Below, in pieces: positions 16,701 to 55,035 of a stretch of DNA of 64,000 nt. The first letter of the stretch is position 1; each line of letters opens with the position of its first letter. Under the pieces are notes generated by a model. The model was not told the DNA's origin. It searched no databases and saw only the letters and a list, made by a program, of their open reading frames with translations. Source of the stretch: Thermothelomyces thermophilus ATCC 42464 (taxonomy: Eukaryota; Ascomycota; Sordariomycetes; Sordariales; Chaetomiaceae); the NCBI RefSeq assembly GCF_000226095.1, contig NC_016477.1:1240001-1304000 (forward strand), read 5' to 3'. A program made the position numbers and the translations under genes.

Positions 16701-19700
16701 GTCCTCATCCAGGTCCTCAAAGGCCACCGAGCGAAGCGTCTCGAGATAGTTGGTAACCATCATATCGGGCGTGACAGTGTCCTCGCTAAACCAGACCATA
16801 CCGCAGCGACTGACGGTGGCAAGAGTGGCATACTTGAGATTCTCCACTTCGAACATGATGCGAACATTCGGCGGAAGGTTGAGACGCTCGCCGTTGGGGA
16901 GGGTGAGCAGCTTGTTGTCGTCGAGCACGCTGTTGAGGTTCTCGACCCATTCGGGATCGACGTCGCCATCGAATACGATCCAGTGGCGCTTGGTGTCCTC
17001 GCCGCGGAGGTTGTCGACGATCTTGCGGAGGATGCTTGTGAAGAGACCGTCGGTCCACTCCCTTGTCGTCGAGTCCAGGTTGCCGTACAGCGCCTCCTTG
17101 GACATGACCTTGCTATCGATGACATGGGACACGCCCTCGACATTCTCAACCTGCTGCAGCGCATCCAGTAGCAACCTCCAGGCGGCCGACTTTCCGGAAC
17201 CGGAATTGCCGACCATCATGACACCATGATGGATCTTCTGGATCTGGTACAACTGGAGGACCTTGGTCATCCAGAGCTCACTGACAACCAGATGCCTCTC
17301 AGCCGCCAAGCGGCGAATCGCCTCCTCCAGCTTAGCCAGGTTGGCAGGCACGTATTTGACACCGGGGAAGCAGACTTCTTCGATGCCCATCATGATCTCG
17401 ACATCGGACTTGATCAGCTTGGGCGCGATGGTCTCACGGATGCTCTGGACAATAATCTCAGGCTCTACAACCTCCTCGGCACCCAGGTTGCCGCCGCTGT
17501 TGGTGAGCCGGGCACGCTTTAGGCCGCCAGAGCTGACCAGGACACTCTTGAGGGCACGCAGACCAAAGTCATAATGTGCCTGCTTCGAGAGTTTGACAGA
17601 ACATTGATCGAAGAAGGGCACCGTCTGCTTGGAAAGCTGCTTCGCCTGGTTGAAACCTTGCGAGTAGAGCATGACCTCGGCAATGAGCTCCTTGTCGGGC
17701 TTGGACATGGCGACACTGCGGAACAGCTTCTTCAAGTTATCCGGCAAGTTCGAACGGCCAGCATAGCCGGGGTTCATTGTGATGAAGATGCCCGTGTTGG
17801 CATTGACGCGGAGCTGGCGGCCAACGAGCTCGATCTGGGCGTTTTCGTCTTCTGCGCCGTGTTTCAGGCCGAGCTGGATATTCTGAATCTGCTGAGAGAC
17901 GGCAGAAAGGATTCTCTCCTCCAGACGGTTGAACTCGTCGAAACAACCCCAGGCGCCGACTTGGCAAATACCGAGGAAGATGCGGCCCATGGCTTGGAAG
18001 TCAAACGTGTCATCGCAGCAAAAGACCAACGTGAAGCGACCGAGCTGAACACCGAGGGCCTTGACTGACTCTGTCTTGCCGGTACCGGCCGGACCGTATG
18101 GTGAGCCACCCAGACGCTGGCACAGTGCTTGAGTGAGGGTAAGGAAGCAGCGGTCAGTGAGCGGCGTCCGGACCAGCCTGTCAGGCACTCCCAGATACTC
18201 GAAGCCGTAGCTCAGTTTGGCATTGGCCATCTTGATGTGGAGGCGCTGCAAGAAGTCGCCCTCGGGCGTATAGACGTAGCGCATTTGGAGAAGCCAGAGG
18301 TAATGGGTATTGGAGCGAGCATTGGCCTTGATGAGCTTCTCAATGACGTCCCGCTGGTGCACGCACTCGGTGATGAGCTGCTCGCACGTCTTCCGCATCA
18401 GCACCTCGAGGTCGCCCAGCACTGTGTCCGCGAGCAGGCGGAGAAGCTGCACCTCGCGGTCGAACAGGGTCTGCAGCGTTGTGCCCCCTGCGGCCAAGGA
18501 TTGGTCAACCGAAGTGGTCCAGACGACCTGGGTAGCCAAGACAACGATTTGGCTGGGATAGGCTTCCATGAACTTTCGAAGAGCTTCACGGTCGATAACC
18601 TCGCTGGCAAATATTGGGCTGAACTCGTCGATGGCCTCCGCCAGGAGCTCGGCAAGAGTCGCCTTCATGCCGTTCTCCAGCAAAGCTAGCCAATCGTTGA
18701 TCCTCGGCGTCTTGACAAGGCTGATCTCCTTCTTGAGGCGGACGACCTCGCCCTCCTTCGAAGTAAAGCCTGTGATGACGGATTCCTCATCCATCACCAA
18801 GCCAGTAAGACCAGCGAACATCTTCTTGAAATGCTTGGCAATGCGCATGGTGTCGTTGCTATTGCCGATCATTTCAAGCAAGTCCTCGTCGCCGACGAAA
18901 TAGAAACGCGGGAACGACACGCGCTCCTTCTCGAGGTACTCGCCGAGAGCCTTCTGGATCTTGTTGAGCAGCTCAGCAAGGCGCTCGAGTGACTTCTGCA
19001 CGTTAGGGATGTTGAGCACGTCCAGAACGTTGGGTTGCTTGTAAACTTTCTTCATGACAGCCGTGAACTCGCTATTGATGTTTTGGAAGCGGGAAGACTC
19101 GATGGGAAGCAGATGCTTGATGTCCGCGTTACCGGTGAACACACCCTCGAGGTACACCCATTGGCGCTGGACGTCAATCCATACGTCAAAGAGAACGTGG
19201 ACGCGGTTGAGCTTGTCCTCCCAAGAAGACGCCTCCTCTTCAAACTCCTTATAGTAGGGTGAATGCCTCATGGCCTGCAGGGAGTTGAGATTCTCGCTGC
19301 ACTTGGCGAAAAGTTCGTCCCAGCCGCGGATGAGGCGGCACTTGTTTTGGTAGTTGACAAGCTCTAGGGTGTACCCGGTCCATGTTTCGCGCACTTGCTT
19401 GAGGAACTCCTCGAGGGCCATCTCTCCCTGGGCCTGGGTAATGATATCCTTGACGATGACCTCGGTGGCAACCAGGTTGAGGTCCCAGACATCACCAAGC
19501 GTCATCGACACGGGAGAGTATCGCTTGCCAGGCTTGATCTGCTTGTAGATCTTGGTCCAGTGCCTGTCGCGAACAGCCTCCGACTTGAGCTCGGTGAGTA
19601 TGGGATTGACTTTCATGAGCTGCCGCAAAACGTTCTGGACATGCTCAAAGGCGGCATACTGGCGCATCCTGCTCGGCATTTCCTTGGTCATTTTGATGAG

Positions 19701-22700
19701 ATTGTCAATCGACGACCGGATCTTTCTCGGCTGGACACTGGTCCATAGGGTTTCGCGAAGCTCGTTCAGATTATTCCAAATGGTCGAGAGCGAGGCCCAC
19801 ACCGACTTGAAATCCTGAACCTCCTCCAGAATGATGCCGAGGGAAGTTTCAGGTGTTGGCTGCAGATCAAGAGCTTCCTTGGCTTTAGCGACCATGGCCG
19901 ACTCTTCCTGGAGTCTCGTAATCTTGGTCTCGAAGTCGCTGAGGGTGGCAGAAGCGACATCAGGGGGAATGGTGCCGGAGACAGGCTTCTCTTCATTCCA
20001 GAGATGCGCAATCTCGTTGATCTTGTCGAGGATGACCTTGTCCTCGGCAATGATCTTGGCGCGAAGTGCGTCCGTCTGGTCCTGGACGATCTTGGCCTTG
20101 CGCGCGAGGGCTTCGTTGAGAGCATCCCAAGCGCCCTCGACGTGTTCCACATGGAGCCAGTCGTTGGGGAACTGGTACCGCTGCCTGACAAGGGTCGATT
20201 CTCCTTGCCTAAACGTCTCGACTTCAGGCGCCCAAAGCTTCACCTGGCGCTTGCAGGTTTGGACGGTAGTGATGAACTGCACGGCCTGGGCGGTGGAGTT
20301 GGCCTCGATCGCCTGGCCCTCGATATCCCTGCGGGCTTTCTCGACTTCTGCATGGACTTCTCGCATGCGCGTGCCCAGGCGGCTGGCGAATTTGATGAGG
20401 ATGTCGTGCTGCCACTGGTCATACTTGGCATTGACCTTGGTCTGGACCTGATCGTAGTCGATGGTGATGTGACCAAAAGAGCGGCTAACCTCGGTAGTGT
20501 CGAAGGTTTGCCGCGTCTTTCTGATCTCCTGAAGGAGTTGCAACCACCTAGACAGCTGGTCGCCGAGAACATCATAGACATGCTCCGATTGCAGGTCCCA
20601 GAGCGACTGGAACTGGAGCCACTTGTCCACATAGGCACTAATCTCGCTGATCTTCTTCTCGACCGACGTCTGGACTCGGAGGAGAGCCGGGGTACATTCG
20701 CTGGGCAGGTCGCTGAAGCGCGGTTCATCATACACGGTCGTGCTGATAGACATCTGGTACCGCGTGGCCTTGATCTTCTTCAGGTTGCAGACGACACCGA
20801 TCCACTCCTGGAGCTGCGAAAACCAGCTAGCTCTGGCGAACTCGAGTGGCGGGTCCAGGTAGATCACTTGATTGCGCATTGTGATTTCGTGAACCAGCTT
20901 CTTGATCACGGGCACATCCGCTTTTGCACCGTCGGTGGTCTGGAGAGGCCTCCGGCGGTCGCCCGACCTCTCGAGATGCTCGTCCTCAAAAGCCTCGATC
21001 CAGGCTTGAACGGCGTGCTGCAGACGAGCAAGCAGGATAGCTTTGATCTGGCGGTTCATGCGCTCTACCCAGTAGCCGAGGTTGACATATTGCTCCAGAT
21101 TGAGCTGGTCGACCGCACTCTGGATCGTTTCCAGCCGGGACTCGAACTCGGAAACCTCGTAGGGGCACTTTTCTAACTCGGCCATCGCCTTTTGCACTGT
21201 GGCGTGGATGTTGGCCAAGGTGATGGTCTTTGACTGAAGCAACGAGACAGCGGCGGCAAACTCGCGGATGAACATGACGTGCTTGCTCTCTCCGCCCTTG
21301 AAATTGTCAAGGCCGCCGTTTGCTGTGTAGTTCTTGAAGTGCACCTCATACGTGTTTACGAACGACTCCCACTTCAGAGGGATGCCCTTGGCGATCAAGG
21401 TGTAAACCTCGTCGCGGTGGCCGCTGAGAAGAACGGCGACCTCGGACATGTCGGCAATCTGGCGGTTGGTTTGCGCAAATGTTCTTACGCTCTCCATCAG
21501 GCTCACAGCGTACGGATAAACACGCTTCGCCTCCTTCGCGACGTTGTTGATGGAGTGAGGGACAGGGAAGTTGAGCCACACCAGGTTACGTGTCTCCTTG
21601 AACAGCGCAATCACCTGGGCGTCGAAGTTGACAGCAAGTTCCAGCGTGTTTCCGGCAGACCGGATGCGGTTGATGTTGAAGAGGAGACCAGAGATTGAGA
21701 TCTGCTTCCTCTGCACATCGTGAAGCCACGCCTCGAAGATGGGCCGCGTGTCGAGTTTCTTGCGGAACAGGTCGCTCTCGCTTTGCAACCTCTGACCCTC
21801 GGCATGGAGGGCCCAGTCAGCGCCCAGCACGTCTTCAACCTTCTTCATGTACCCGTCGAGCTGCCGCTCGATCTGACGCGCCCAGATGATTGCGCCGGAA
21901 ACCGGGGGAAGATCGTGCAGCTGAGCCATGGCATGTGCCTCGGAATGGCCGTACTGCTGCTTGAAGCGCTCGTGAAGTGCGGTGATGGCTTGCTTGACGT
22001 TGTCAATCAGCTGAGTCTGGTACTCGGCGATGGCGCCGCGGATCTTGGGCCGCACGAAAAGCGCATTGAACTTGGAAAAGACGCGGAACATTTCATTGGC
22101 GTTCTTTGCCGTGGCCAGCCGGTCGCGGAGTCGGGCAATGATGGAGTTCTCCACGCGCGAGGTCCGCTCGTTGTAGATGTTCTCGGCCCGAGCCCACTTC
22201 GCAGTACCTTCGGGGGTGACATCGAGAAGATCAACATCCTTCAGGCCCTCCCAAGCCTGTCTGACCTCCTCGACAGCGTCGACATCGCCGATCTCCTCGA
22301 CGACAGCGGTGCCGTTGGCACCGGACCCGTCCGAGATGCCGTTCACGGTCGCCTTGGGCCCGAGAACATTGACAATCGTCCGCTGCAACTGCTCGTGGTT
22401 GTCACGGAAGTTACTGACGTACTTCAACCGCGCCTGCAGCTCGGCGTGCCTGGGAACGATCTTGATGGGAATGAACCTCTCGTTGCGGCGGCGGGTGACC
22501 TCACGTGCTACATTGGTGAACTCCTTGATATTCTCGTCCCAGATCCGAAAGATGTCGTCGGTTTGCTTCATCACGCGGCGGAACTCCTGATAGTCAAGCT
22601 TGACCAGTTCAGTACCGGGGAGCAAGCGGTGCAGAACCTCGTCCAAGTCACCAGAGATGGTTTCCACAAGCGGGAGCGCGCGGCGGATGGGGTAAGGGCA

Positions 22701-23947
22701 AATCCTCAGCTTCTTGTTCAGATGGGTGAAGATCTGCCCGATCGAGTCCTTGACCTTGAGCAAAGTGGTAGCCGAGAGTAGCTCATCCAGGGGAAAGTCG
22801 CGCATAAGTTGGTTGTACTTTTGCACCTTCTCCATCGCCTCCTTCAGGCCAGTATCGGCAGTAAAACTAACGGTGGCCTGGAAACGCTTGGCGTGCTTCA
22901 AGATCTCAAGAGTCAGCATAACACCCTCGCTCCTGAGCTGGTTCTCGATCCCTTCGAGCGCCGACTCCATCGAGAGCCAGAAATTGATCTCTTGTGTTGC
23001 CGTGCCGGTAGTCGGATCTCTCGTCATCTTCGTGATGACCTGAATCGACTTTATCCAGTTGTTGACCGTGGCTTGAAGGTTGTTGAGGAAGGTGCTGTCT
23101 TGCAGAACGGAGGGCGGAATAAGATCGAGAGTGGGCTTTGTGCCCCTGGCAACCGCCTCATCGAGTGCTGTTTGCACTATGGGGTGGAACGGAAGGGACA
23201 CTTCGGGAATCTCAACGTTCTGTTGGAGGTGGAGGAGGGCGAGCTCAAGCTCGGTCCACCGCTTCTTGGTGACGGGAATGCCGGTCTTAGCATCCACGTC
23301 AGCCCGCCCTCTCCCGCCACTAAGCGTCTGCTGGCTCTTCGTGCTCGCGTCGAAGTATGGCGCCAGGCCGTTATGGAGATAGAGCTGAAGGATCTCGAAG
23401 GGCGAGGCGGTGGGACCTTGCTCTCCGCCGTTTGCCGACAGGTATGCCGGGCCGGGTAAGTTGAGCATCTGAATCTGCGACGTTATCGGGATGTTGGGAT
23501 CCAGGGGCTGGGGTCGCTTGAGCAGAACGAGGTAGGCCACCGTCGTCGAGGACGAGGAGAAGTCGGAGGATATCGTGTAGGCATGCGATGGCGCCTCTAG
23601 AGCCCTGTTAGACCTACGTCGTAATGGGGGATCTTTCTTTCGGCAGTAACCATACCCTCGGCCTCACCATCTTCCACTGTGTCTGTCGGCACCAAGTCCT
23701 TCTGAACATAGAGGGCGACCTGGGTGTCCACAGCAAACCGCGTGCACCGCTGCAACGTTTCGGCGTAGCGAGCCTTGGACAGCAAACTGCCAGGAGCCTC
23801 AAGCTCCTTCCGGGTCGCACCGAGGGCGGCTTCGAGGAGGGAGGCAAGATGGTCGACAACACGGACGGGGTCGACGGCAGCGAAGGGCGTCGCTGCAACG
23901 CTGTTTCCTCCCGGACTCGTGGCCGGGGGAGAGGTAATCGCTTCCAT
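10785..23947 (-). CDS. nudA: Cytoplasmic dynein heavy chain, complete
   Basis: Three exons, 23947-23656, 23596-11316 and 11252-10785, encode 4346 aa, close to other filamentous-fungal dynein heavy chains (nudA, ro-1). The protein is the motor subunit of cytoplasmic dynein, moving nuclei and vesicles toward microtubule minus ends. After a long tail and linker, four P-loops are visible: GPAGTGKT near residue 1930 (AAA1, the main ATPase), GNSGSGKS near 2227, GPPGSGKT near 2592 and GVSGSGKT near 2934. A coiled-coil stalk begins near 3175 and flanks the microtubule-binding domain ([20 protein letters not shown]). AAA5, AAA6 and the C-terminal domain follow. Intron 1 (59 nt: GTATGG donor, CTAAC branch, TAG acceptor) joins the N terminus. 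Intron 2 (63 nt: GTAAGT, GGCTAAC, CCAG) joins the last 156 codons. Without intron 2 the frame would stop early, at 11265. Confidence 0.97.
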
Positions 23948-31193: not shown

Positions 31194-32859
31194 TCACTTG
31201 TACTTTTCGTTCAGCGAGCCTGCAGGCTGCTTTCCCTCAGCTACCGTCATGCCGCTCAGCGACTGCGTGTCCTGCCTCTCCCGGTTCAGGGTAGCGACTC
31301 CTCCATCGCCTCCCCCAACAATGATGTTGTCTCCCGTCGACGTCCTGCCGACTACCATGCCCTTGGCCACGCTCTTCAGTATGGCCCTCCGCGACACGCC
31401 CGTGACGTCGATGTAGACCAATCCAACGTTCTTGACCCCACTACCCAGGCTCCTGGTCACTTCACCGGCTTCGGGTCCCCACTTATGCCCCACTACCGTG
31501 GTCGCCGCTTCCGACGTCGAGGCCAGCAGGTTGCGCCCGGCCTGCTCGACGCCGTCCATGACGGTGGAGAAAGCCATCATGCTCTTGTTGAGCAGGCCCG
31601 GCTTATATGTCGGAATCGGCTTGCCGTCCTTGTCGAAGCCCTTGTGCGGGGAGCCATCCTTGTTTTTGCCGTGACCACCGAGGGAGGCGCCCCAGTTCTG
31701 AGCCACCTTAGTGATCTGGCCAACCGTCTTGGCCGAGAGGGCTGCCGCGCTACCGGTGAAGGCGCTGATGCGCCGGATGTGCTCGCGCGTGGTGGGCTTA
31801 AACGTGAGGGGCTTGGCATCTGGCTGGACTTTCTTGGTGAAGTTGTCGGCCTGGTTCTGGAGCAGCTTGGAGAGCATGTCGGAACCAGTAATGATGAGAC
31901 GCGAGGCCGCCGAGGCGTTGGACACGAGAAACGACTTCTTGTACGCCGGATGAAGGTTTGCCGCGTACAAATCCTGGGAAATCGGGGCGACGTTGATATT
32001 CTGCCCGCCAGCGGCGGGGAGGGTTATCTCGACCGGGTCTGCGATGCATCACTAAGTGTCAGCAGTGCTTCTCAAATGCCAAAGGCGGACAAGCGCAGCG
32101 AACCTTTCGAACCCGGCTTCAGCTTGCTGTCCTCGACGACCTGATATCCATCGGCTAATTCTCCTATGACGCTGCCATCCTCCTCGTCGACGAGCACAAT
32201 CTGTCCCTTTGCGGCCCCGCTGTGGCTGCCCCGCACGTACCCCTCCCCAGGCTTGAAGTCGGCCGGGTTATATGCAGGGAGCGCGTCGCCCGCCGCTTCT
32301 GCGGCCTTTCTCGCTGCGCTCTTCTGGCTCTCGCTACCGCCTTCCCACCATTGCTCGTCCTTCCCAATCTTGGGTGGTGGCGCCCGTTCGAGGAAGGCGG
32401 TGCATTGCGCCAGGATCGTCTCGAACGTGTCGACATCCTCCTGGATCCCCTTGCGGCTCTCTACTTGGGGAAACTCGATTCTAGTGAACGCGCCGCTATC
32501 GGGTCCAAGATCCCATCGCGGGATCAGATAACTGGTCGGCGGCTGGTGGTAGATCTGTGTTGTGGCCGGGAGCGGTAGATCCAGCTCGGGCGGCAGGTGG
32601 AGGTGCAGGTAGAAGTCTTGCTCCGGCGTGGCGTCGGGGTCGATAGCGGGGTCGGCAAAGGCGGACGTCGTCGGCACCATCAGCAGCGACAGTGTTTGCG
32701 GGCCGGCGGGAGTGAGTGGCTCCTCCTTGCCATTAACGATATGGTACGCCGACACGCCATTGATGGCGTAGAGTAACTTCGGATCCTGTTGGGGTCGTGT
32801 GTCAGCCCAGCACCGGATCTCAGCGCGCGGAAATGTCTCACATTGTGCCCAGATGCCAT
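31194..32859 (-). CDS. Senescence/spartin-domain protein
   Basis: Three exons, 32859-32842, 32785-32104 and 32038-31194, encode 514 aa. The first exon is tiny (six codons, MASGHN) and ends at a GTGAGA donor. Joining to DPKLLYAINGVSAYHIV gives a continuous N terminus. The third junction (GTTCGC donor, GCAG acceptor) restores KPGSKDPVEITLPAAGG. The C-terminal half has the senescence domain (plant senescence/spartin type): AANLHPAYKKSFLVSNASAA, TREHIRRISAFTGSAAAL, KSMMAFSTVMDGVEQAGRNL and GVKNVGLVYIDVTGVSRRAI. Spartin-like proteins associate with lipid droplets and endomembranes in animals. The role in fungi is less clear. A WDLGPDSGAFTRIEFP region in the middle matches the N-terminal part of these fungal proteins. 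A predicted weakness is the 18-nt first exon, which rests on splice signals and frame only. Confidence 0.82.
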
Positions 32860-35422
32860 CTTGGAGGGGATTTCGGTGCTCGGGGTCAATTGGTTGGGGC
32901 CAGCCGAGTGCGGTTCAAGAAACCTCGCGCGAGCTGTAATGCACCGGGGTGCGGGGGCGGGGTGAACTGCAATGAACGCTCAACCTTCGCTGCCGATGAC
33001 TGCAGTGGTCTAGTTCGACAAAGATGCTCCTGAATATCAGAACTTGGGGAAGTTAAATCAGAAAAGCGCTCCCAACAGGTCTGGTTTGCAATCCCACAAA
33101 TCCGTTGCAGGCGGGGTTGGTTGGCAACTGATCCAAAAGGGTTTCAGGATAGCAACTGCCCAGCATCGCGCGACCCCAGGCGCTTAAAGACGACTCCTGT
33201 GTGGAGAAAGCGCGAGGCCTCCTCGAGCCTCTCTCACAGGATCGACGTCATTGGTGTGCCAAGTTCGGGCAAGTCTTCGCCCGCCACTGTTCCGGTCGAC
33301 GAGCCTGGCTGTGTACTTCGTATTGTACTGGTAGAGAGTTTTTAGGAGCACGGAGTGGCACGGCAAGGCTGCTCGGTGCGCTCGCCCGGAGGCCAACTCT
33401 AGTCACTAACGTAGTCTATCAGATCACCCATTTGAAAGTGATCTAGCGCAGCCCCTGCAGCACTAACCTTTTTGTTCTCCTGCGATGCGACACCACCTTT
33501 TACTTCGAGACCGGATTGACTTCGTAAACTAAGTTTTTTACTCCCGCCGGTATCGAAGTCTTTTTGGGAGGTGACTGAAAGTAGTGAACGCGCGCTCACA
33601 AATAAGATGCTGCAGAAAGGCTTTCAAATTGTGCATGGATGTAGCGGATCACCTCTTCCTACAAGTACATGAGTGCGCCTACTGCCAGCGCTGATGAGGC
33701 CGAGATGTTGGAGATACCGTTTTTGGTGGCCCATACCTCCATGCGCCCGGCAAATTCCCACTTGGAGCAGTGGAGTGGTAGGAGTTGGCTGGCCTTGATG
33801 AAGCCAGAGGAGACATTCCGCGCCGAAATATACATACAAGAACACTCTGAAGCACACGTATTCGTACTTCATACCTTACGCCTCAGGTACCCAGGTGTAT
33901 TCCGTACTTCCACGCCGAGAATGTTGCTTCCTATCCATACGAGTATCCACCAGGCTTCCCTTATCAGCTTCGGAGCTCGCAGGCCGCAATCAGGAGAGGA
34001 GAGATCAGTTCCCATGTGGGCCCACTATCCCATCTCGCGCGAGGGGCACGATCAGGAACTCGAACATTGTCAATTAATACCAACAAGAGACTAAGCAGAT
34101 TTGTCGAGGAGCGATGTCTCGCGGCTGCATTGCCTGACCTCCCTCAGAGACGGGGTGGCTCTGGGCACTGGGCGCTGCAAGTGATCCCGAACCAGCTACC
34201 ACTGCATACGACCAGTCGCGTGTTTTGCGTATCACATACATATATAGTTATAAGGTATGTCAGGGATGTATATACGGAGGTACTCCGTCCTTTCCTCCGT
34301 ATATCTACCGTAAGGTATCCTGGGGAATCTACAACCCTGAGGACCCCCGACTTGCTCCGGCAATTTCGTCCCACATTCCGAAGCGGCTAACAGGGAGCCT
34401 TTCCGGCTGCTGAGAGGGCACGACAGCCGGCGGAGCGACTTGGGACCGAGTCGGCTACAGAAGAAGACGGCCCTGGTCCTGCACCACCTTCCAGGTTTAT
34501 GACACAAGCCGTCTTTCTTTTTTTTATTTTTATTTTTATTTTTTTTTGAGATAGGCAAGCATGCGTACATTATGTAGTAGTATACACTACGGCTGAGAGG
34601 AGAGAACACCAGCCTCAATGCGCCGAGAACTGTGAATTGCGCGGTTACCTTCTAACCTAGTCCATGCTGCCCTTCACGATGTCAGGTGGGTGGCAGGACA
34701 ACCCATATGCTCAACCATCCATGAAGTTGCACCGCATCCACGAGGCGCACTTGTGGTGAAATTTCGATGGATCTAGAAGAGTGGCCACATACCAGGCAGA
34801 CAAGCTGTTGTGCTGGACCAAGGCCTAACGAGCAGACGCTGCCGGTCTCGAGTGCCTGCATCGATAATGTGCCAGTTTGCCTGTGCATCCGCACACTAAT
34901 GGGCAGCTTCGGTTTGCAGTATGTAAATCAAATCCATGCAATGCCGGTGTGCTGCAATATCTCCGTGCTCCTCTATCTTCATCTGGCATGTTTCGAACCC
35001 TTCCGGGACGGGCGATAGCAAGGTGAAGGCAACTTCTGGAGTTTCCAGTGGGAGCGAGTTCCGATGCCAAGCGAGCACCAAAGGGGGAGCCCACCCCAAC
35101 CAACGGAGCTGGCACTTGTCGGTGTCAAAAAAAAAGGGGGGGTAGTTGTTGAGGGCATAGAGCACCTGTCACAATTGTTCTGTTTGTCTGCGTTTCAGCA
35201 AGGTTGCCGATCAACAAGCTAAGTTTCAATCCAGCTACTTCCCGCAGACACAAATCGGGGTGTGTTTGACCAAAAACGACCACTTCCTGTTGAAACCGAA
35301 TGGGAAAGAAGGGTTGTGTCTCTGGCGCCTGCCCTTCCAACCGACCGGAGCTGGGGCTTGGCTCGCTTTCACCGCCTGCCCTACCTCCAATTCCAGACAG
35401 GACACCCGGTAGTCACTGCATA
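32860..35422. other. Large intergenic region
   Basis: About 2.6 kb with no supportable coding sequence. Open frames here are short, have no GC-ending codon bias and no family resemblance. A TACGGAGGTACTCCGT palindrome-like cluster lies near 34272-34288, and T/A-rich simple sequence at about 34515-34548. The left end is the promoter side of the senescence-domain gene. Confidence 0.45.
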
Positions 35423-36551
35423 TGTAGTTAGAGTGAATACTTAGGTATCTTAGGTATTGTTCCTGCCTGGTAGGTACACTAGCTCAACCCACGCAGCACC
35501 GCGTTAGTTCCTTGAGGGGCACCTTCCCCGTTTTCCAGGCCCTCAAGAATAAAGCCCACAAAAACGCTTATTCCCTGCGACCGGAACCTACCAAGACACT
35601 CCGTTGATCTCGTTTGCGTCCGACGTACTCTGCACTTCATCCGAGCTCAAATCCTTGACTGTTGAAATCAAGCTCGGCCGATCCAGACCCTGGCAACGGC
35701 CTGCCACAACCATATTCGAGTCGCCCACTCATACCAAGTACCCTAGCAAAGCACCCACCCGATCCCGGCACAGGGACCTGGCTGCCGACGTTACCGACTT
35801 GCACCGACGGCTACCGACGAATCGCCTGCCCTTGTGCGTAGTGCAATCCGCATCCCGCGTTGCCGCCCACCGCCCGACTCAGCCGTCCGCCTCGCTTAGT
35901 TACTGCACACGGCAGAGTCAACCCTGTACCGCCGAAACTCGCGTCCTGGAAGCTGCGTAACGGCCCGGACTTTCTACCACATCCAACCTCAGCGCTCTGC
36001 TGCATTCTCTTCGCCTTCGACTGACCACATCCGCACAAACTCACGAGCCCCGCCCGCATCTTTGCGCAATCCGACAGGCATTGCCAACCAACGTTTCGGC
36101 CGTCGTCACACTGGCTCGCCCGGATAGGCACATCTTGGCGGTCGGCTGCCGCCCACTCTCGTCCGGCTACCCGCACATACGGATACCTGCACCGTCAGTG
36201 GCACTACGAGCTGTGCAAACGCCAGTCCTCCTCGTAGCCAACTTGCCGCATCGCCCCGTCCCGACCATCCCCTTCATTGCCCTCCGACAATCGAGCTCTT
36301 GCTCCGTCCATCCACCGCACTGCTTGCTGCACTGCCTTAGACCCCGCTCCTGCGACTGTTGTCACCCTCACTCGCAGAGGCGGACGTTCTGAGCCTGCGT
36401 ATTTGAGTTCGTTCTCTCGCGGGCCGCCCGACGACCCCGATCAAACGTCGAGTCTCGGCTCTTGCTTCCCGAGTCCGCATTGCTTCCGCTGAGCGGTCTT
36501 AAGCCGCCAGTCGCACTGTGTGTGGTGTGGCCGGGGAAGGCCTAGATCTCC
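35423..36551 (+). promoter_or_regulatory. ATG-free, C-rich long 5' leader of the Zn2Cys6 gene (proposed)
   Basis: From 35423 to 36747 not one ATG occurs on the plus strand, whereas the same stretch has 18 CAT triplets (ATG on the complement). The sequence is C-rich and pyrimidine-rich, with many stop codons in all frames up to an in-frame TAG at 36543. Such strand-specific ATG loss is what selection on a scanned 5' UTR leaves. The transcription start is not visible. The leader therefore probably exceeds 1 kb, but its left limit is inferred. Confidence 0.55.
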
Positions 36552-39500
36552 GTGGTGTTTGCGCCAAGGGGGGTCCCGTTGCGAGACCCAACCGCCGTCA
36601 CGATTGCTTCCCAGTTGCGTATCCAATCCATCATCTCCCCTCCCGAGCCGCCCGACGCCCACGCGGCCGCGGCAACGCCCTCCTTGGACCAGCAGAACCC
36701 GACGCCAAAGAGGAAGTTCCACCACGCCTTTACCGCGCCGGCGCCCGATGCGCCCATCGATTCGGCAGAGCCGCCTGCGCCGCCGCACTCCTTGCTCCCC
36801 CAGCGCTTGCCCAACATTCGCCAGCCACTGCCGCACGGCCCGCCACGCCCCGCCGCGGTCGGGGCGGTCCGCACCCAGGGCCACACCGCTACCATAGCCG
36901 CCGCTGCCGACGATGATCACAGGCCGCCCGCCCAGGCTCCAATGATGTCGGGTAGCCCCGGCAGCCCGGGCGCCATTGACAGCAAGAAGGGCATCAAGCG
37001 GACACCACTGCGATCCAGCATCGCCTGCCAACGCTGCCGCAAGTCCAAGATCAAGTGCAATAACACGGGCGGCGACCAGCCCTGCGAGACATGCATTCGC
37101 AATGGCAAGGAGTGCACCTACCCCGAGGTGACGCCCGCCCCGCCGAAGCGGTCCGAGCCGTCCTCGGGCGTCAAGATGGAGCAGGGCCCGGAACGGAAGC
37201 GTCTACGGCGTATCGAAGACATTGTCAAGATGGAAGGTGCCGTCCCGCCCGCCGTGGTCGCCGAAGACGTCCTCTCGGCCCCCTATCTTACCGAGACCGT
37301 GTGGAACCAGCTGTTCGACATATATCGGCTGCACTTTGCGACCGAGCTGCCCTTCCTCCACTTGGCCACCCTAAAGGAGAAGCTCGGAAACCGGTTCAGG
37401 GCGAAACCTGCCGACACCTCGCCCGAGATCAACCTCGTGCTCTTGGGCATCCTCACGCTAACGGCACGGTTCCACAGCACCCTGGTCTCGTACGTCACGG
37501 CACCCCGGAACAGCCCAGCAGGGCCGGGCGTGCCCAAGCCTCGGCAAGGCGGCCCGGCCCAGGACGCATCGAGCGCGTCAGAGTACTACGCCGATGTCCT
37601 GACCAAGGCGCTCGGCGGCCTGAGGACGAGCATGACGGTAGCCTCGGTGGAGAGAGTGCAGGCCTTCCTGATGCTGGGGCTTTATGAATGGAGTCAGGCG
37701 CGGCCCAGAGTCGGAGGGATGGCGGCGTGGATGTACGTCGGCGTGGCAATCCGGATGGCGCAGGCCCTGGGGCTGGGCGACGGCGACAAGGAGTCAGGCA
37801 AGGTGTTCCGGTCCCGGCCCGTCAAGCCCGCCCAGCAAACCATGACGCCGACCCAGCGGATAACAGCGAAAGAAATTAGGAGACGTACCATGTTCAGCTG
37901 TCTGATCTTGGATCGCTTGTTGGGCTGCGGCAAGGATCGCGTCTCCACCATTCGCTCCGAGGATTTGCAGATCCAGTTGCCGTGCGCCGAAGTCTCCTTC
38001 GACCTCTCGGATGACGTCTACACGGGCTTCCTGAAGCCGACGCCCGGGGTGGACCCCAACCGGCCCATCTCGGACAGCGTGCTCGGTCGCTTTGTCCGCC
38101 TCGTCGACCTCTGGGGCGAGATCTCCAAGTGGAGTTTCTCGGGCGGCCGGTTCACCGAGGACCACCCTCCATGGTCGCCCGAATCGAACTTCTTCCAGTT
38201 GCGTCGGAAGCTGGAGGCGTTCTACGGGGATCTCCCAGACCACTTCAAATGGTCAGACAGCAACTACTACAAACACGAAAACCACCAGGCCAGCAGCGTC
38301 TACGTTTCGCTCCACATGCTGGGTGCCGTGTGCAGGATCATGCTTCACCGTGAATATATCCCGTTCATTCCCATTCTCTGCTCCACGCCGGTCGGTCCGC
38401 TCGACGAGCCCACGTTCGCCCCGGGGCAGGAGCCGCAGGGCTTCTGGGAGGCCAGTGCCGAAGAGATCTTCCATGCTGCCAAGGACATTGTCGACCTCGC
38501 CGAGATTTGCCGCGACAAGCTGCCTATGTCCTCCCTCGTGCTCTTCGCCATCTGGACGGCCGCTTTCGTCGGCATCTATGCCGTCCACTTCCCGCACATG
38601 GATACCAAGGGTCATATGCTGCCCAAGGAGGAGACCAAGGGGCCGATCGACGTGACCAAGCATGGACCTACCGGGCTGACGTACAAGCTGCTGACGCACA
38701 TGTCGCTCTGGCTCAAGCTGGCTGAGACCTACGTTGGCTACTTCAACGAGATGGCCCGCTACTATGAGACGGTCAAACAGGACTACGAGAGGTACGTTGG
38801 CAGCAACAATAAAAGTCGCAGGGGCGGCGGCGGGCTGGAGGAGTGGAAGGAGCGAGCTTTCAAGGTCGTCAACAACGGCGAGATCCTCGTCGTCGACGAG
38901 GGGAAGAGCACTTCTCGGGACAGCACGGTTGAGCCCGGCTCCTCGGTCGGCCCGGACGGCAGCAGCCACCCGACCGACCACGCCAAGACGCCCCGGTCGA
39001 CCTCGATGTCTTTCACGCCGATCAACACGTCGCAGTCACACCAGGGCCAGTCCGACTCGGCTTCTGAAGCCGCGGCCGAGGCAGCCGCGTCCACGCTCTG
39101 GCGCATCCAGCAGCCCCACGGCCACCAGCACAACAGTCACCACCCGCACCCGCACCCGCACCAGCACCAGCACCAGCATCAGCATCAGCATCAGCATCAG
39201 CATCAGCACCAGCACCAGCAACCTTCGCCCTCCCAGACCTCGGGCGCCGTTCCGTCGCCTCAGATGGCGCAGCACCCACACCCGCACGCGAACGCGACGA
39301 TGGCGATGAGTACGATGGCGGTGCCGAAGCTGCCGCCATACGACGCCGGCGAAGTGGCGATGTACCTGGAACAGAACCAGTCGATGCCGTGGAACCTGGC
39401 GCCGGGTGGTGTCGACCAGTTTGCGCACGGTACCGAGGACCTGGACCACTTGGATCAGGGGAATCTCTTCTGGGGGAGCATGCCCGAGAACTGGACCGGC

Positions 39501-39563
39501 TCTACTACGGCCGGGGTTGGGGTTGGGATGGGGGGAATGTTGCAAGGTTATTCGGGTTATTAG
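36552..39563 (+). CDS. Zn2Cys6 transcription factor with a proposed non-AUG N-terminal extension
   Basis: One exon. The first in-frame ATG is 36942 and gives 873 aa. Coding-like sequence continues upstream without a stop to 36546, and no ATG is available there, so initiation may use a near-cognate codon (GTG 36552/36555, TTG 36579, ACG 36600 or ATT 36603), adding up to about 130 residues. The zinc cluster follows C-x2-C-x6-C-x8-C-x2-C-x6-C (ACQRCRKSKIKCNN, then PCETCIRNGKECTYP) near residue 25-60 of the ATG form. A fungal-specific transcription factor domain spans about residues 115-520, with LLGILTLTARFHSTLVSY, FLMLGLYEWSQARPRVGGMA and RRRTMFSCLILDRLLGCG. The C terminus has Ser/Thr linkers, an alternating His-Gln tract (about 725-755) and a Gly-rich end. 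It is probably a nuclear DNA-binding regulator. Its target genes are unknown, and no metabolic cluster lies next to it. Confidence 0.85.
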   Translation: MVFAPRGVPLRDPTAVTIASQLRIQSIISPPEPPDAHAAAATPSLDQQNPTPKRKFHHAFTAPAPDAPIDSAEPPAPPHSLLPQRLPNIRQPLPHGPPRPAAVGAVRTQGHTATIAAAADDDHRPPAQAPMMSGSPGSPGAIDSKKGIKRTPLRSSIACQRCRKSKIKCNNTGGDQPCETCIRNGKECTYPEVTPAPPKRSEPSSGVKMEQGPERKRLRRIEDIVKMEGAVPPAVVAEDVLSAPYLTETVWNQLFDIYRLHFATELPFLHLATLKEKLGNRFRAKPADTSPEINLVLLGILTLTARFHSTLVSYVTAPRNSPAGPGVPKPRQGGPAQDASSASEYYADVLTKALGGLRTSMTVASVERVQAFLMLGLYEWSQARPRVGGMAAWMYVGVAIRMAQALGLGDGDKESGKVFRSRPVKPAQQTMTPTQRITAKEIRRRTMFSCLILDRLLGCGKDRVSTIRSEDLQIQLPCAEVSFDLSDDVYTGFLKPTPGVDPNRPISDSVLGRFVRLVDLWGEISKWSFSGGRFTEDHPPWSPESNFFQLRRKLEAFYGDLPDHFKWSDSNYYKHENHQASSVYVSLHMLGAVCRIMLHREYIPFIPILCSTPVGPLDEPTFAPGQEPQGFWEASAEEIFHAAKDIVDLAEICRDKLPMSSLVLFAIWTAAFVGIYAVHFPHMDTKGHMLPKEETKGPIDVTKHGPTGLTYKLLTHMSLWLKLAETYVGYFNEMARYYETVKQDYERYVGSNNKSRRGGGGLEEWKERAFKVVNNGEILVVDEGKSTSRDSTVEPGSSVGPDGSSHPTDHAKTPRSTSMSFTPINTSQSHQGQSDSASEAAAEAAASTLWRIQQPHGHQHNSHHPHPHPHQHQHQHQHQHQHQHQHQHQQPSPSQTSGAVPSPQMAQHPHPHANATMAMSTMAVPKLPPYDAGEVAMYLEQNQSMPWNLAPGGVDQFAHGTEDLDHLDQGNLFWGSMPENWTGSTTAGVGVGMGGMLQGYSGY
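39120..39222 (+). repeat. CAS/CAGCAT microsatellite coding an alternating His-Gln tract
   Basis: Tandem CACCAG, CATCAG and CACCCG hexamers encode HPHPHPHQHQHQ-type sequence near the C terminus of the Zn2Cys6 protein. The alternation of two codons is unusual compared with pure poly-Gln. Copy number is likely variable between strains. Confidence 0.92.
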
Positions 39564-50934: not shown

Positions 50935-53900
50935 ATGCTTCGTCCCATCTTCTCCGGGCCGGCAATGCCTCCCGCGCCGAAGGGTGACGCTGCTCTCCGT
51001 TCCGGAGCCGCCCCCCGTCAAGTCGGCGCGAGGAGCCTTGCTGGTACCCGGCGCTGTCCCGGGGCCCGGCGCCGGCGAGCACGTACGGCCAGCACGCTCG
51101 TCACGGCAGTGTTGGGTCTTGCAGCGCGGGCATCTGCCGAGCCGGTGCTGCCGTACACCCCAACCACGATATTGCTGGCCCCCGACGGTGCCGCGGGCAG
51201 TGGCGCCGCCTACATCTTCGCCCCGAGCGGCGACGACCGAGATGCGGTCGACTTCCTGGCCCTCAACGTCTCCAGCCTGCGCGCCTCCGCCCTCGAGCCA
51301 ACGAAACTAACTCCCGACCTTCCCTTTCTCTCCAAAGACGCCGCCGATTGTGCTACCTTCGCGCCGACCATCCTCCGCAACGGTACCATCGTCGTCCTCG
51401 CGGGCGACTGCTCCTCCACCGCAGCCTCCACCCTCTGGAGCTACACCCCGGGACAGCCCGATGCAAGATGGACACAGCACCCCGTCGTGCCGTCTGCCTC
51501 ATGGGACAATGCCCAGGCGGGACCCTACCACCTCGGCGGACTCGTCAACTTCTCCCCTCAGCTCAGCCCCGTTCTCTCCGAGCCGACGCTCTACTTCTAC
51601 GGCGGCATGTGCCCTCGGAAGTCCTCCTCCTCCGCCGACACCTGGCAGTCCAATGCTGCCTATTCCAACCGCATGCTCCGCCTGATCCCGCCTAGCCCAC
51701 CGCCCTCCTCCTCCTCCTCCTCCTCCTACACGCTGGATTACGCTTCCGCCGGGGGACAACAACAGCCTCCCGTGGCCGAGGCGGGCTTCACCTGGACCGA
51801 GCTCACGCCGTCGCTATCCAACCGCACCATCATCACCACCACTTCCGACGGTGGCGGCAAGGACGGGGCCGGAACGGAACAGGTGACGACGAGCATCATC
51901 ATCACCCAGCAGACCAGCCACGTGCTGCTGGGGGGCCACACGCAGGGCGCCTTTGTCAACATGAGCACCGCCGCCGTCTGGTCGCTGCCCGAGGAGACGT
52001 GGACTTTTGTCTCGATCGCCCCGCCCCCGGCTGCTTCTTCTTCTTCTTCTTCTTCTTCTTCTTCTGACGACGACGACGACGACGGGAGGGCGGACCTCGC
52101 GCGGCAGCGGGAGCGACAAGAAGAGGAAGAGAACAACAAGAAGAAGCAAAAGACGAAGACGAAAAGGAGACTACGGCGGGAGGCGGCGGCTGCCGCGCCG
52201 GGGATGGTGGTGGACAGTCGGTCCGGGCACACGACCGTGCTGAGCGAGGACGGGACCAGGCTGGTGGTGTACGGCGGCTGGGTCGGGGACGTGAGCCGGG
52301 CGGCCGAGCCGCAGCTGGCCGTGGTGAGGCTCGGCGTCGGGCTCGCCGACTGGGAGTGGGAGGTCCCCGCCGACCAGGGGAGCGCCCCGTCGTCGTCGTC
52401 CGGAGGAGGAGGGGGCGTGTACGGGCACGGCGCGGTCGTGCTGCCGGGGAACGTCATGATGGTGTATGGGGGGTACGAGACCTCCGAGGGCGGCAAGATC
52501 AGGAAGAGAAGAACGGGCGGGAGCATGTTCTACAACATCACGAGCGGGAGCTGGTCCGATGTGTATGTCAGTCCGCTCGTTCAAGGAAATAGCGGAAAGA
52601 GCGGTGGTGATGGTGGTGATGGTGGCGGCGGCAGCACCCACGGCGGCGACGCGGGCGGCGACAGCGGTCTTGGCGGCCCGGCCGGGAACGGAAACAGCTC
52701 GGGCGACTGGACAAAAGCGAAGCGGATCGGTCTCGGAGTCGGCCTTGGAGTCGGCTTGCTCGTCCTCAGCATCCTGGCGTGTCTCGGCGTGTGCTGGTTC
52801 CGCCGGAGACGGCAGCGCCGGAGATCCCGCGATGAGACGCTCCGGGGTCTCTCGCAGGGACTGAACGGCCCGCTGGCCCGCGGCGTCGGGGAGGAGGACG
52901 ACGGCGAGATGCTCGAGCGAGACCACGGTATGGGCATGTCCTTCTTCCCCTGGACCGCCGCGACGGCACGGGACTGGTACATGGGCATGGGCGGGGACGA
53001 CCCCTACATGCAGGGCCGGCGCTCGCTGGGGTACGAGAGCCTCCGGGGAGGGTACCGGCCTTCTTCTTCTTCTTCTTCTTCCTCCCTGTACATGCCGCCA
53101 CCTCCTTCGGCGTCCACGTTCAGCCACCGGCCGAAGGCGGCCAAGGGCCTCCACCACCAACCGAGCAGCTCGTACGACTTCACCCCGCTCACGCGCGGCC
53201 CCAACCGCATCGAGCCCATCTACGAAGCCGACGAGGACTCGGAAGGCGACCTCGGCAAGAACTACCCGCTCGGCCCGGACAAAGAGGAGCGCGTCGGCAA
53301 CGACACCGACCACGACGACGACGACGACCCCTTCCTCACTCCTACCCTCAGCACCCCGACCGGCGGAGCTTTCCCGAGGCCGCATACCGCCAACTCGAGC
53401 CCGCGCAACTCCGGCTCCCCTACCCCTCCCGCCGCGCAACGAAAAAAACAACAGCAACAACCAGCGGAAGAAACAAAATTAGCAGCAGCAGCAGGAGGAG
53501 GAGGAGGCCAAGAGCAGCACCCGGACGTGCAAGGCTGGGTGCACGAGGTCGAGAACCTCGCCGCGGGGCCCTCGCCCTCTCCTCCCTCGCCTACCTCCTC
53601 TTCTTCCCAGCCCCCGTCTCCTCCTCCTCCTCCTCCTCCTCCTCCTCCTCCTCCTCCTCCTCCCACATCTACCGTGGCCACGGTGATAAGCCGCGTCTCC
53701 TCGCTCCGGCGCGGCGCGTCGGCCAGATCGAGCCGCCAGCCCGATTCACCGTCGTCACCACCCTCGGCGGCGGCGTCATCATCATCGTCCGGAGCGACCG
53801 ACGACGGGCGGACGGGGAGCAACCTGTCGGAGCGCAGCGCCTTCAGCTTCGTCCCCGCCAGCGGCGGAGGCGGCCGAGGCTCGGCGGGCGCGGAAGACCG

Positions 53901-55035
53901 GGTCCTTTTGTCGCGGCTGCGCACGACGCTCGCCGCCGCTGGTGCGACGGGCGGTGGTGTCGGCGGCGGCGGCGGCGGGGATGGCCGGCTGGGGAGCAGC
54001 GGCAGCAGCTCCGGCGGCTCCTCCGGTCGGAGCTACAATACGGCCCGGTCGAGCTTTGCGGTTCTCCAGGCCGAGGGGCCCCGGCTGCTCCTGGGGCGGC
54101 GCGGAGAAGAGGAGGAGGAGGAGGAGGAGGGGGAGGGGGAGGGGGAGGGGGAGGAAGAGGAGCAGCAGCAGCAGCAGGAGGGAGAGACGGACGGCGACTA
54201 CGTCTACGTGCCGGGCAGTCCGAGCAAGAGCAAGGCGAGGAGGAGCTGGTTCGGGAGCCTGAGGAGGGTGTTTAGCGGCGGCACGCCCGAGTCCGGGAGC
54301 CACGCGAGCGGGAGCAGCCTCGGGGGCGACAGTCCCACGCGAGAGGGGCTCCTCTCCGGGGCGAAAGGGGCCAGCAGCTCCGACTACGGCGGCCGGCCGT
54401 ACGGCGGCGCCGGGCTGCAGAGGCGAAGACATGGGAGGGAGGCATGGCTGGGAGGAGGGGACGGGGACGGGGACGGGGACGACGAGGAGTGGGAGAGGGA
54501 TCTGGAGAGGGCGGCCGAGCAGCGGACGGTTCAGATCATGTTCACCGTGCCCAGGGAGCCGCTGCGGGTGGTCAACGCCGAGGTGGAGAGGGAGGAGAGC
54601 GTGCTGATTGTCGACCCCGAGGAGGAGGAGGAGAAGAAGAAGAAGAAGGATGACAATGACGACGACAAGACCAACAAGACGGCACCGGCGGCGCCAGGAG
54701 ACGGCCCCCCGTCCCGGAAGGAGACGCCGGAACCCAGCGCGATTCCGGATCCTCCCCCTCCTTGGCTGGCTCCCGCTGACCCCCGGACGGAGCAGGATGA
54801 CAGGGCGGCGAACAGACTATCGACTGCTACGTCGGAGCCGCCACCGGTTGGCGTGTCTCCGTCCCCGTCGCTGCGGGCACCGTCGATCGGCAGCACCACG
54901 CTGCACACGGCCGAGGCCGTGAGGCTGGAGCGGCCGAGGACTCGGGTCCTGGAGATGGTCGAGAGCTTCGAGAGCAGAAGCCGGGAGGGGAGCCGGGAGC
55001 CGAGTCCCACGGGAAGCCCGGTGAGAAGATCATAA
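50935..55035 (+). CDS. Large kelch-repeat type I membrane protein
   Basis: A single exon encodes 1366 aa from the first ATG. A basic N terminus leads into a hydrophobic segment TASTLVTAVLGLAARASA (about residues 50-68) that fits a signal peptide ending before EPVLPYTP. The extracellular part has kelch-like blades: TLYFYGGMCP, HVLLGGHTQGAFVNMSTAAVW, RLVVYGGWVGD and GHGAVVLPGNVMMVYGGYE. A Ser-Asp-Lys insert made by microsatellites interrupts blades near residues 365-425. One membrane span, IGLGVGLGVGLLVLSILACL (about 598-620), is followed by a stop-transfer RRRRQRRRSRDE. The about 730-residue cytosolic tail has a less repetitive stretch (FFPWTAATARDWYMGMGGDD, QGRRSLGYESLRGG). It then becomes very low-complexity, with poly-Pro, poly-Glu, poly-Ser and Gly runs. 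It may sense or bind the cell surface. The ligand and function are unknown. Confidence 0.82.
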   Translation: MLRPIFSGPAMPPAPKGDAALRSGAAPRQVGARSLAGTRRCPGARRRRARTASTLVTAVLGLAARASAEPVLPYTPTTILLAPDGAAGSGAAYIFAPSGDDRDAVDFLALNVSSLRASALEPTKLTPDLPFLSKDAADCATFAPTILRNGTIVVLAGDCSSTAASTLWSYTPGQPDARWTQHPVVPSASWDNAQAGPYHLGGLVNFSPQLSPVLSEPTLYFYGGMCPRKSSSSADTWQSNAAYSNRMLRLIPPSPPPSSSSSSSYTLDYASAGGQQQPPVAEAGFTWTELTPSLSNRTIITTTSDGGGKDGAGTEQVTTSIIITQQTSHVLLGGHTQGAFVNMSTAAVWSLPEETWTFVSIAPPPAASSSSSSSSSSDDDDDDGRADLARQRERQEEEENNKKKQKTKTKRRLRREAAAAAPGMVVDSRSGHTTVLSEDGTRLVVYGGWVGDVSRAAEPQLAVVRLGVGLADWEWEVPADQGSAPSSSSGGGGGVYGHGAVVLPGNVMMVYGGYETSEGGKIRKRRTGGSMFYNITSGSWSDVYVSPLVQGNSGKSGGDGGDGGGGSTHGGDAGGDSGLGGPAGNGNSSGDWTKAKRIGLGVGLGVGLLVLSILACLGVCWFRRRRQRRRSRDETLRGLSQGLNGPLARGVGEEDDGEMLERDHGMGMSFFPWTAATARDWYMGMGGDDPYMQGRRSLGYESLRGGYRPSSSSSSSSLYMPPPPSASTFSHRPKAAKGLHHQPSSSYDFTPLTRGPNRIEPIYEADEDSEGDLGKNYPLGPDKEERVGNDTDHDDDDDPFLTPTLSTPTGGAFPRPHTANSSPRNSGSPTPPAAQRKKQQQQPAEETKLAAAAGGGGGQEQHPDVQGWVHEVENLAAGPSPSPPSPTSSSSQPPSPPPPPPPPPPPPPPPTSTVATVISRVSSLRRGASARSSRQPDSPSSPPSAAASSSSSGATDDGRTGSNLSERSAFSFVPASGGGGRGSAGAEDRVLLSRLRTTLAAAGATGGGVGGGGGGDGRLGSSGSSSGGSSGRSYNTARSSFAVLQAEGPRLLLGRRGEEEEEEEEGEGEGEGEEEEQQQQQEGETDGDYVYVPGSPSKSKARRSWFGSLRRVFSGGTPESGSHASGSSLGGDSPTREGLLSGAKGASSSDYGGRPYGGAGLQRRRHGREAWLGGGDGDGDGDDEEWERDLERAAEQRTVQIMFTVPREPLRVVNAEVEREESVLIVDPEEEEEKKKKKDDNDDDKTNKTAPAAPGDGPPSRKETPEPSAIPDPPPPWLAPADPRTEQDDRAANRLSTATSEPPPVGVSPSPSLRAPSIGSTTLHTAEAVRLERPRTRVLEMVESFESRSREGSREPSPTGSPVRRS
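53612..53664 (+). repeat. (CCT)n microsatellite coding poly-Pro
   Basis: About 16 CCT units encode a poly-proline run in the cytosolic tail of the kelch protein. Similar coding tracts in the same gene are (TTC)n near 52036 (Ser), (GAC)n near 52067 (Asp) and (GAG)n near 54108-54130 (Glu). Confidence 0.9.

Follow-up and report, generated by a model that had tools for sequence, protein, structure and literature searches.

A probable AUG-free leader and a candidate non-AUG start above a Zn2Cys6 regulator gene of Thermothelomyces thermophilus

The DNA analysed here, referred to as the window, is a stretch of 64,000 nucleotides (nt) from Thermothelomyces thermophilus ATCC 42464 (C6:1240001-1304000), the genome of which comprises 38,744,216 bases in 7 contigs. 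On its plus strand lies a gene for a zinc-cluster transcription factor preceded by a long stretch without any ATG, read below as an mRNA leader that was probably cleared of AUG and that may end at a non-AUG start codon (Table 1; positions are those of the window). Matches to Zn_clus and Fungal_trans were found in one frame, which identifies the product as a Zn2Cys6 transcription factor. This frame is open from 36546 to 39563, with a stop directly above it at 36543. Two upstream open reading frames (uORFs), designated A and B, precede the first ATG of the main frame (36942), which is followed at once by a second (36945), and the TGA of uORF B was found to overlap the first in-frame ATG (ATGATG). 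Initiation of the main frame at an AUG thus seems hindered, since the ATG at 36942, with C at -3, shares bases with the stop codon of a uORF that itself has A at -3.

Comparison of the gene product with proteins of its own genome gave nine matches, the gene itself included, from 22 candidates scored. These matches covered the zinc cluster or later parts of the protein, with the N-terminal extension described below included in none. Weak matches to the zinc cluster only were found in the PDB (five sequences at E up to 0.1, best 0.021), and no orthologs were identified in tblastn-confirmed scans of viral, bacterial and archaeal contig collections. Among the literature matches listed none could be tied to the gene, and peptide words from it matched no paper; the gene itself could not be named, and the missing tie is for that reason weak evidence of novelty. 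A CACCAG hexanucleotide array of 13.3 copies with 95% matches was identified at 39141-39220; it gives the Zn2Cys6 protein a His-Gln repeat in its C-terminal part, and the length of this array may differ from strain to strain.

Table 1. Features at the locus of the Zn2Cys6 gene, in window coordinates
Feature	Position	Strand	Basis or remarks
C-over-G change point, sequence-based estimate of leader start	35316..35556, best 35477	+	Change-point fit (range within two log units), skew profile
ATG-free stretch	35425..36747	+	Read as 5' leader and, over the last ~145 bases, the beginning of a putative coding extension
CUG opening a 93-codon frame within the leader	36111..36392	+	A at -3, G at +4; speaks against a leader wholly free of starts
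Candidate start, tandem near-cognates ACG AUU	36600..36605	+	Context GTC ACG AUU GCT; AUU has A at -3, G at +4
Putative N-terminal extension, 112 codons without ATG or stop	36606..36941	+	Open frame; phase and codon scores
uORF A	36748..36897	+	49 codons, +1 frame, weak context (C at -3, C at +4)
uORF B	36913..36945	+	10 codons, +1 frame, A at -3
Main open reading frame from first in-frame ATG	36942..39563	+	873 amino acids, no intron needed; 986 codons from AUU 36603
Zn2Cys6 cluster, Zn_clus PF00172	37023..37130	+	E 1.7e-9, above curated cut-off
Fungal_trans domain PF04082	37317..38219	+	E 2.5e-21, above curated cut-off

Successive plus-strand ATGs were found at 35422 and 36748 with none between them, where 11.8 were expected from base content and 10.1 from dinucleotides. 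The complement, CAT, occurs 18 times in the interval, and both counts agree with those of the first-pass annotation of this DNA. A zero outcome was seen in none of 5,000 order-1 Markov simulations of the stretch (minimum 1). Of all 64 trinucleotides, ATG showed the strongest depletion (z about -4.0), with CCC next (-2.5). The asymmetry between the strands had been taken in the first-pass annotation to argue against base composition as the cause. This holds for the missing ATGs, which go beyond composition, but the contrast of 0 with 18 is partly compositional, because the CAT count is normal (16-19 expected). No third of the stretch contains ATG (expected 3.9, 3.1 and 2.9), and the upstream neighbour at 34300-35424 (1,125 bases) was found to be normal, with 18 ATG against 16.8 expected.

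The stretch was compared with other ATG-free gaps in 264 kb, read on both strands and comprising the window and 20 sampled 10-kb stretches. The sampled 200 kb amount to only about 0.5% of the genome, and the comparison therefore does not give a genome-wide rank. No other ATG gap in the window or in the 200 kb sampled elsewhere is as long, and by expected ATG count (10.2) the stretch ranks first of 557 gaps of at least 200 bases, with the runner-up at 7.6. At a guanine plus cytosine (GC) content of at least 0.5 the longest gap is again this one (1,326 bases), followed by gaps of 889 (within an open reading frame, ORF) and 846 bases. AT-rich runs of 1,280, 1,254 and 1,202 bases (GC 0.37-0.38) in the sample hold only 1 to 6 CAT. 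In 13 sampled ORFs that probably start at AUG, the ATG-free run directly before the start was at most 543 bases long, and the 300-base flanks of these ORFs averaged 3.0 ATG and 3.7 CAT.

Other causes of the missing ATGs were considered. Repeat-induced point mutation or AT-richness was ruled out by the GC content of 0.61 and the normal CAT count. Coding on the minus strand was ruled out for 35424-36545, over which the three minus frames score -0.31 to -0.52, while at 36606-36747 one minus frame scores 0.142, near the 0.172 of the main frame. An enrichment of ATC and TTG in the stretch was set aside as an artefact, because the absence of ATG automatically inflates its neighbours in expectations built from dinucleotides. 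No Rfam family reached its gathering score in 34500-37000, and none of 40 windows of 80 nt between 35430 and 36990 showed stable RNA structure at z < -1.5.

Three further observations concern ATG-free runs elsewhere. The second-longest gap of the window (889 bases, 53092-53981, plus strand) lies within a stop-free frame of 1,395 codons whose Kelch-type matches stay below curated cut-offs, and it is therefore probably coding and not a leader. In the sampled stretch L006, an 846-base C-rich run on the plus strand (5440-6286, GC 0.59, 8 CAT) carries a stop-free frame of about 280 codons and ends 250 bases ahead of a 1,752-base ORF at 6538; it may represent a further leader poor in AUG, or else a hidden non-AUG frame. 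Stretches L007, L015 and L018 contain AT-rich blocks, with the listed runs mostly at GC 0.29-0.38, in which long runs are poor in ATG and CAT alike, and these blocks could have been left by repeat-induced point mutation.

The upstream edge of the ATG-free stretch was found to be marked by base composition also. The share of C in C+G is 0.50 before and 0.65 after the fitted change point (Table 1), the skew profile shows C above G from about 35.4 kb onward, and a change-point fit of pyrimidines against purines gave a break at 35314 (35280-35825). Two other ATG-free runs of the window, at 32272-32741 and 33024-33485, have C shares of 0.46 and 0.50, which indicates that the C bias is not general to such runs. 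The edge of the stretch and the skew break roughly coincide, which fits a transcribed leader starting there. Transcription would then probably start near 35.4-35.55 kb, giving a leader of about 1.1 kb. Alternatively, transcription might start near or beyond 36.4 kb, in which case the DNA upstream would be a chance ATG-free run in a promoter. The part from 35425 to 36400 taken alone has 7.8 expected ATG and a probability of zero of about 4e-4, and the genome holds many such stretches. Set against this are the rank of the stretch as the longest at GC 0.5 or more on both strands of the 264 kb, the lack of ATG in all three thirds and the position of the skew change point at the upstream edge, and we regard a short leader as unlikely.

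The ATG-free stretch is real and is best read, in our judgement with good confidence, as a leader purged of AUG, and this part of the interpretation is fairly secure. It is proposed that the purge occurred because each AUG would divert scanning ribosomes. In the first-pass annotation it had been proposed that upstream AUGs were selected against in a leader about 1 kb long. This proposal draws inferential support from the ATG-specific, sense-strand-only loss in all three thirds and from the C-over-G break at 35477; the ATG-free stretch runs, however, into coding-like sequence and may not be leader throughout. The further claim that scanning ribosomes must cross the leader intact is too strong. 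Good-context near-cognates, defined here as those with A at -3 and G at +4, remain in it, so that the leader appears to have been purged of AUG but not of every possible start. Upstream of the AUU at 36603 four such codons were identified, foremost among them the CTG at 36111, and a frame ending at 36390 is opened by a second tandem pair of near-cognates, ATC TTG at 36132. These four codons also count against a main start placed further downstream.

At its other end the ATG-free stretch does not stop at a start codon of the Zn2Cys6 gene. The ATG at 36748 is out of frame, and the first in-frame ATG follows 194 bases downstream; the end of the stretch lies 145 bases past the candidate AUU, within an in-frame, ATG-less and coding-like stretch. 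Codon usage and three-base periodicity typical of coding sequence set in between 36546 and 36606 and persist from there. The phase score of 36606-36941 (0.121) falls between the 25th and 50th percentiles of true frames and above the 99th of wrong frames, and it was reached by none of 3,000 order-1 Markov simulations, while its codon score (0.384) was reached by about 0.13% of them. The other two plus frames score negative over this interval, and the phase scores of three pieces of the leader are all negative. For the part above uORF A alone (36606-36747), the scores were reached by 0.03% (phase) and 4.2% (codon) of simulations.

Several results weigh against coding in the extension, or against its placement. 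The codon score of 0.384 does not reach the 25th percentile of true-frame windows, which is 0.549, and narrowly misses the 99th percentile of wrong frames, 0.398; in a first scoring the extension obtained 0.126, with the wrong-frame 95th percentile at 0.132. In the main phase, the codon scores of the leader pieces are positive as well (0.155, 0.037 and 0.259). Among the in-frame upstream flanks of 26 control ORFs, two score at least as high as the extension on both measures and four on the codon measure, perhaps reflecting that these control ORFs are internal exons. At the base content of the extension, a run of 132 open codons, the length found in the main frame above 36942, would arise by chance with a probability of 0.14. 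In addition, ten of 49 long ORFs with an ATG (the present gene included; drawn from the sample and the window, with frames lacking any ATG left out) have a longer stretch from stop to first ATG. Finally, the 60 bases from the stop at 36543 to the AUU are ambiguous (phase 0.111), and the coding signal consequently does not mark the AUU sharply. The coding signal of the extension is therefore rated as good but not decisive.

A coding extension would have to begin either at a codon other than AUG or within an exon further upstream, because the interval between 35422 and 36748 lacks ATG in all frames and the main frame has none before 36942. Upstream of 36748, the open frame contains a single near-cognate that combines A at -3 with G at +4, namely the AUU at 36603, the second codon of the tandem ACG AUU. 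Its position is close to where the coding signal sets in, an edge that is itself ambiguous over 36546-36605. Two points count against this codon: finding a single in-frame near-cognate in good context would not be unusual by chance, and AUU is not known to belong to the strongest near-cognates. From the sequence we put at about even the chance that the protein starts at ACG-AUU and that the leader ends there.

Entry of the frame from an upstream exon was also considered, whereby an AUG in that exon would be joined to the extension by a long intron across most of the ATG-free stretch. The ten ORFs with longer stretches before their first in-frame ATG are as expected when introns hide the true start. 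A scan of 36078-36960 with a simple consensus, which could miss weak sites, revealed no 3' splice site with a CTNAY branch site, and the intron would exceed 1.1 kb, compared with 88% of annotated Neurospora crassa introns under 200 nt according to the available text of one study (PMC3951366). An intron would also give no reason for an ATG loss confined to the sense strand, and we regard this explanation as very unlikely. It is more improbable still that the AUU represents a misread or mutated AUG, through an assembly or strain difference, and thus an ordinary start below a long AUG-free leader. The context (CACG AUU GC, with A at -3 and G at +4) and the location near the edge of the coding signal would suit such a start; an assembly of 38.7 Mb in 7 contigs should, however, rarely contain errors.

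A more substantial alternative keeps the long AUG-poor leader but places the start at the in-frame AUGs 36942/36945, with ribosomes leaking past the weak uORF A and reaching the main AUG after or around uORF B, and with the open frame above being untranslated GC-rich leader. Leaky scanning is plausible given the C at -3 and C at +4 of the ATG at 36748, and the ATG at 36945 has A at -3. Leaders of Cryptococcus and Neurospora are described, in the text available, as long, AUG-rich and subject to leaky scanning (PMC7049704). The Zn2Cys6 match starts 27 codons after the ATG at 36942, and long and short forms would therefore both keep the zinc cluster. On the other side, the 112 codons above this ATG show coding-like composition in frame, it would be odd for AUGs to be purged over 1.1 kb and for two uORFs then to stand right before the start, and uORF B has A at -3 and terminates on the start codon. 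We consider an AUG start a real but rather doubtful possibility.

The explanation we favour, with a chance judged to be slightly short of even, combines an AUG-purged leader of about 1.1 kb on a Zn2Cys6/Fungal_trans gene with a near-cognate start at AUU 36603, perhaps together with ACG 36600, by which the uORFs are bypassed. Transcription from near 35.4-35.55 kb would produce the leader, from which selection would clear AUGs up to the point at which coding begins. Initiation at the AUU, perhaps with the ACG, rather than at an AUG would yield a protein with 113 extra N-terminal residues, and ribosomes that started there would pass both out-of-frame AUG uORFs. Ribosomes that missed the near-cognate would instead meet uORFs A and B, which would hinder the use of the in-frame AUGs 36942/36945 downstream, resulting in little of the short form.

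An arrangement of this kind is already known. For N. crassa cpc-1, the available text of PMC5487733 describes a leader of more than 700 nt, an out-of-frame uORF2 preceded by in-frame near-cognates, and products with extended N-termini. Initiation in extracts was reported at NCC5 and NCC7 (AUU), NCC6 (CUG) and NCC8 (ACG), but was not detectable at NCC1 to NCC4 (PMC5487733). The present gene resembles cpc-1 in being a transcription-factor gene with a long leader and a main frame open far above its first in-frame AUG (from 36546, past uORF A at 36748-36897), with a good-context near-cognate in frame above an out-of-frame AUG uORF (AUU 36603, although one such codon is not unlikely by chance), and with AUU and ACG among the candidates. 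Its extension is also coding-like in composition, at a level that two of 26 control flanks reach as well. The gene differs in encoding a Zn2Cys6 instead of a bZIP protein, in having no short reinitiation-permissive uORF1 (there being no ATG between 35422 and 36748) and in having no AUG ahead of the near-cognate, where cpc-1 has uAUG1. Furthermore, conservation across species has been shown for cpc-1, whereas the layout proposed here is read from a single genome. It also tells against a near-cognate main start that, in the same text, the activity of cpc-1 near-cognate reporters in vivo fell far short of that in extracts (PMC5487733).

The cpc-1 ortholog of this genome was identified in the sampled stretch L031 (193-1662, plus strand) as a 489-codon open frame, and its uORF ATGs and near-cognate ACG match the published Pezizomycotina layout. 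The ACG (A at -3, G at +4) lies at 406, followed by an out-of-frame ATG at 426 and an in-frame ATG at 886, an order shared with the Zn2Cys6 gene and counted in favour of the near-cognate reading. The extension of this ortholog scores weakly in the phase test applied above (-0.074, reached by 0.07 of simulations; 0.01 in the codon test). This counts among the points against the near-cognate reading of the Zn2Cys6 gene and indicates that the phase and codon tests are not very sensitive.

Ustilago maydis pgd1 offers a second likeness, as there a tandem AGG AUU was reported, in the text available, to start a peroxisomal isoform and was tested by mutation (PMC7214817). In both genes two adjacent in-frame near-cognates, the second being AUU, lie above an AUG. 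As far as that text describes it, pgd1 differs in encoding an enzyme, in having a short extension with a targeting signal and in its test by mutation, compared with the sequence evidence presented here. No zinc-cluster gene with a non-AUG start was recognised by title or opening of the abstract among the literature matches listed, which is no proof of absence.

Long leaders have also been described for regulators of Candida albicans, which belongs to a different subphylum. The 5' untranslated regions (UTRs) of UME6 (3,041 nt), CZF1 (2,071 nt), WOR1 (2,978 nt) and EFG1 (1,139 nt) are given in the available text of PMC6034079, in which an effect on translation is reported for three of them (UME6, WOR1 and EFG1). 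With 5' UTRs of 1.1-3.0 kb cited there, the description of the present leader as unusually long for a fungal mRNA was overstated. The likeness extends to a regulator mRNA with a leader of more than 1 kb, which is here unmapped and deduced from sequence, and no AUG purge or near-cognate main start is described for the C. albicans leaders in the part of that source available (PMC6034079). In Saccharomyces cerevisiae, upstream AUGs are depleted in leaders with a mean of 84 nt, according to the available text of PMC7049704. The leader described here is similarly AUG-poor, which would let scanning reach the start, but at about 1.1 kb it is not short as these are. As Neurospora leaders are described in the same text as long and AUG-rich, an AUG-free leader of about 1.1 kb is notable and runs against the trend (PMC7049704).

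It is tentatively suggested, as a possibility somewhat less probable than the near-cognate start as such, that this zinc-cluster regulator has its main product initiated at the tandem ACG-AUU and its AUG short form suppressed by the uORFs, and so represents a second, non-bZIP case of the cpc-1 layout in which the purge marks the start of a hidden non-AUG frame. If this is true, a gene model starting at the first in-frame AUG would miss 113 residues of the regulator, the level of the regulator would depend on the stringency of start-codon selection, and the cpc-1 design would be extended to zinc-cluster regulators. Comparison of the end of an ATG-free stretch with the position of the first in-frame AUG is suggested as a cheap test for hidden non-AUG starts.

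Elsewhere in the window, a stop-free frame of 4,132 codons was identified on the minus strand at 11265-23663. Dynein heavy chain families were matched over most of its length, with DHC_N1, DHC_N2, AAA and stalk among the domains found.

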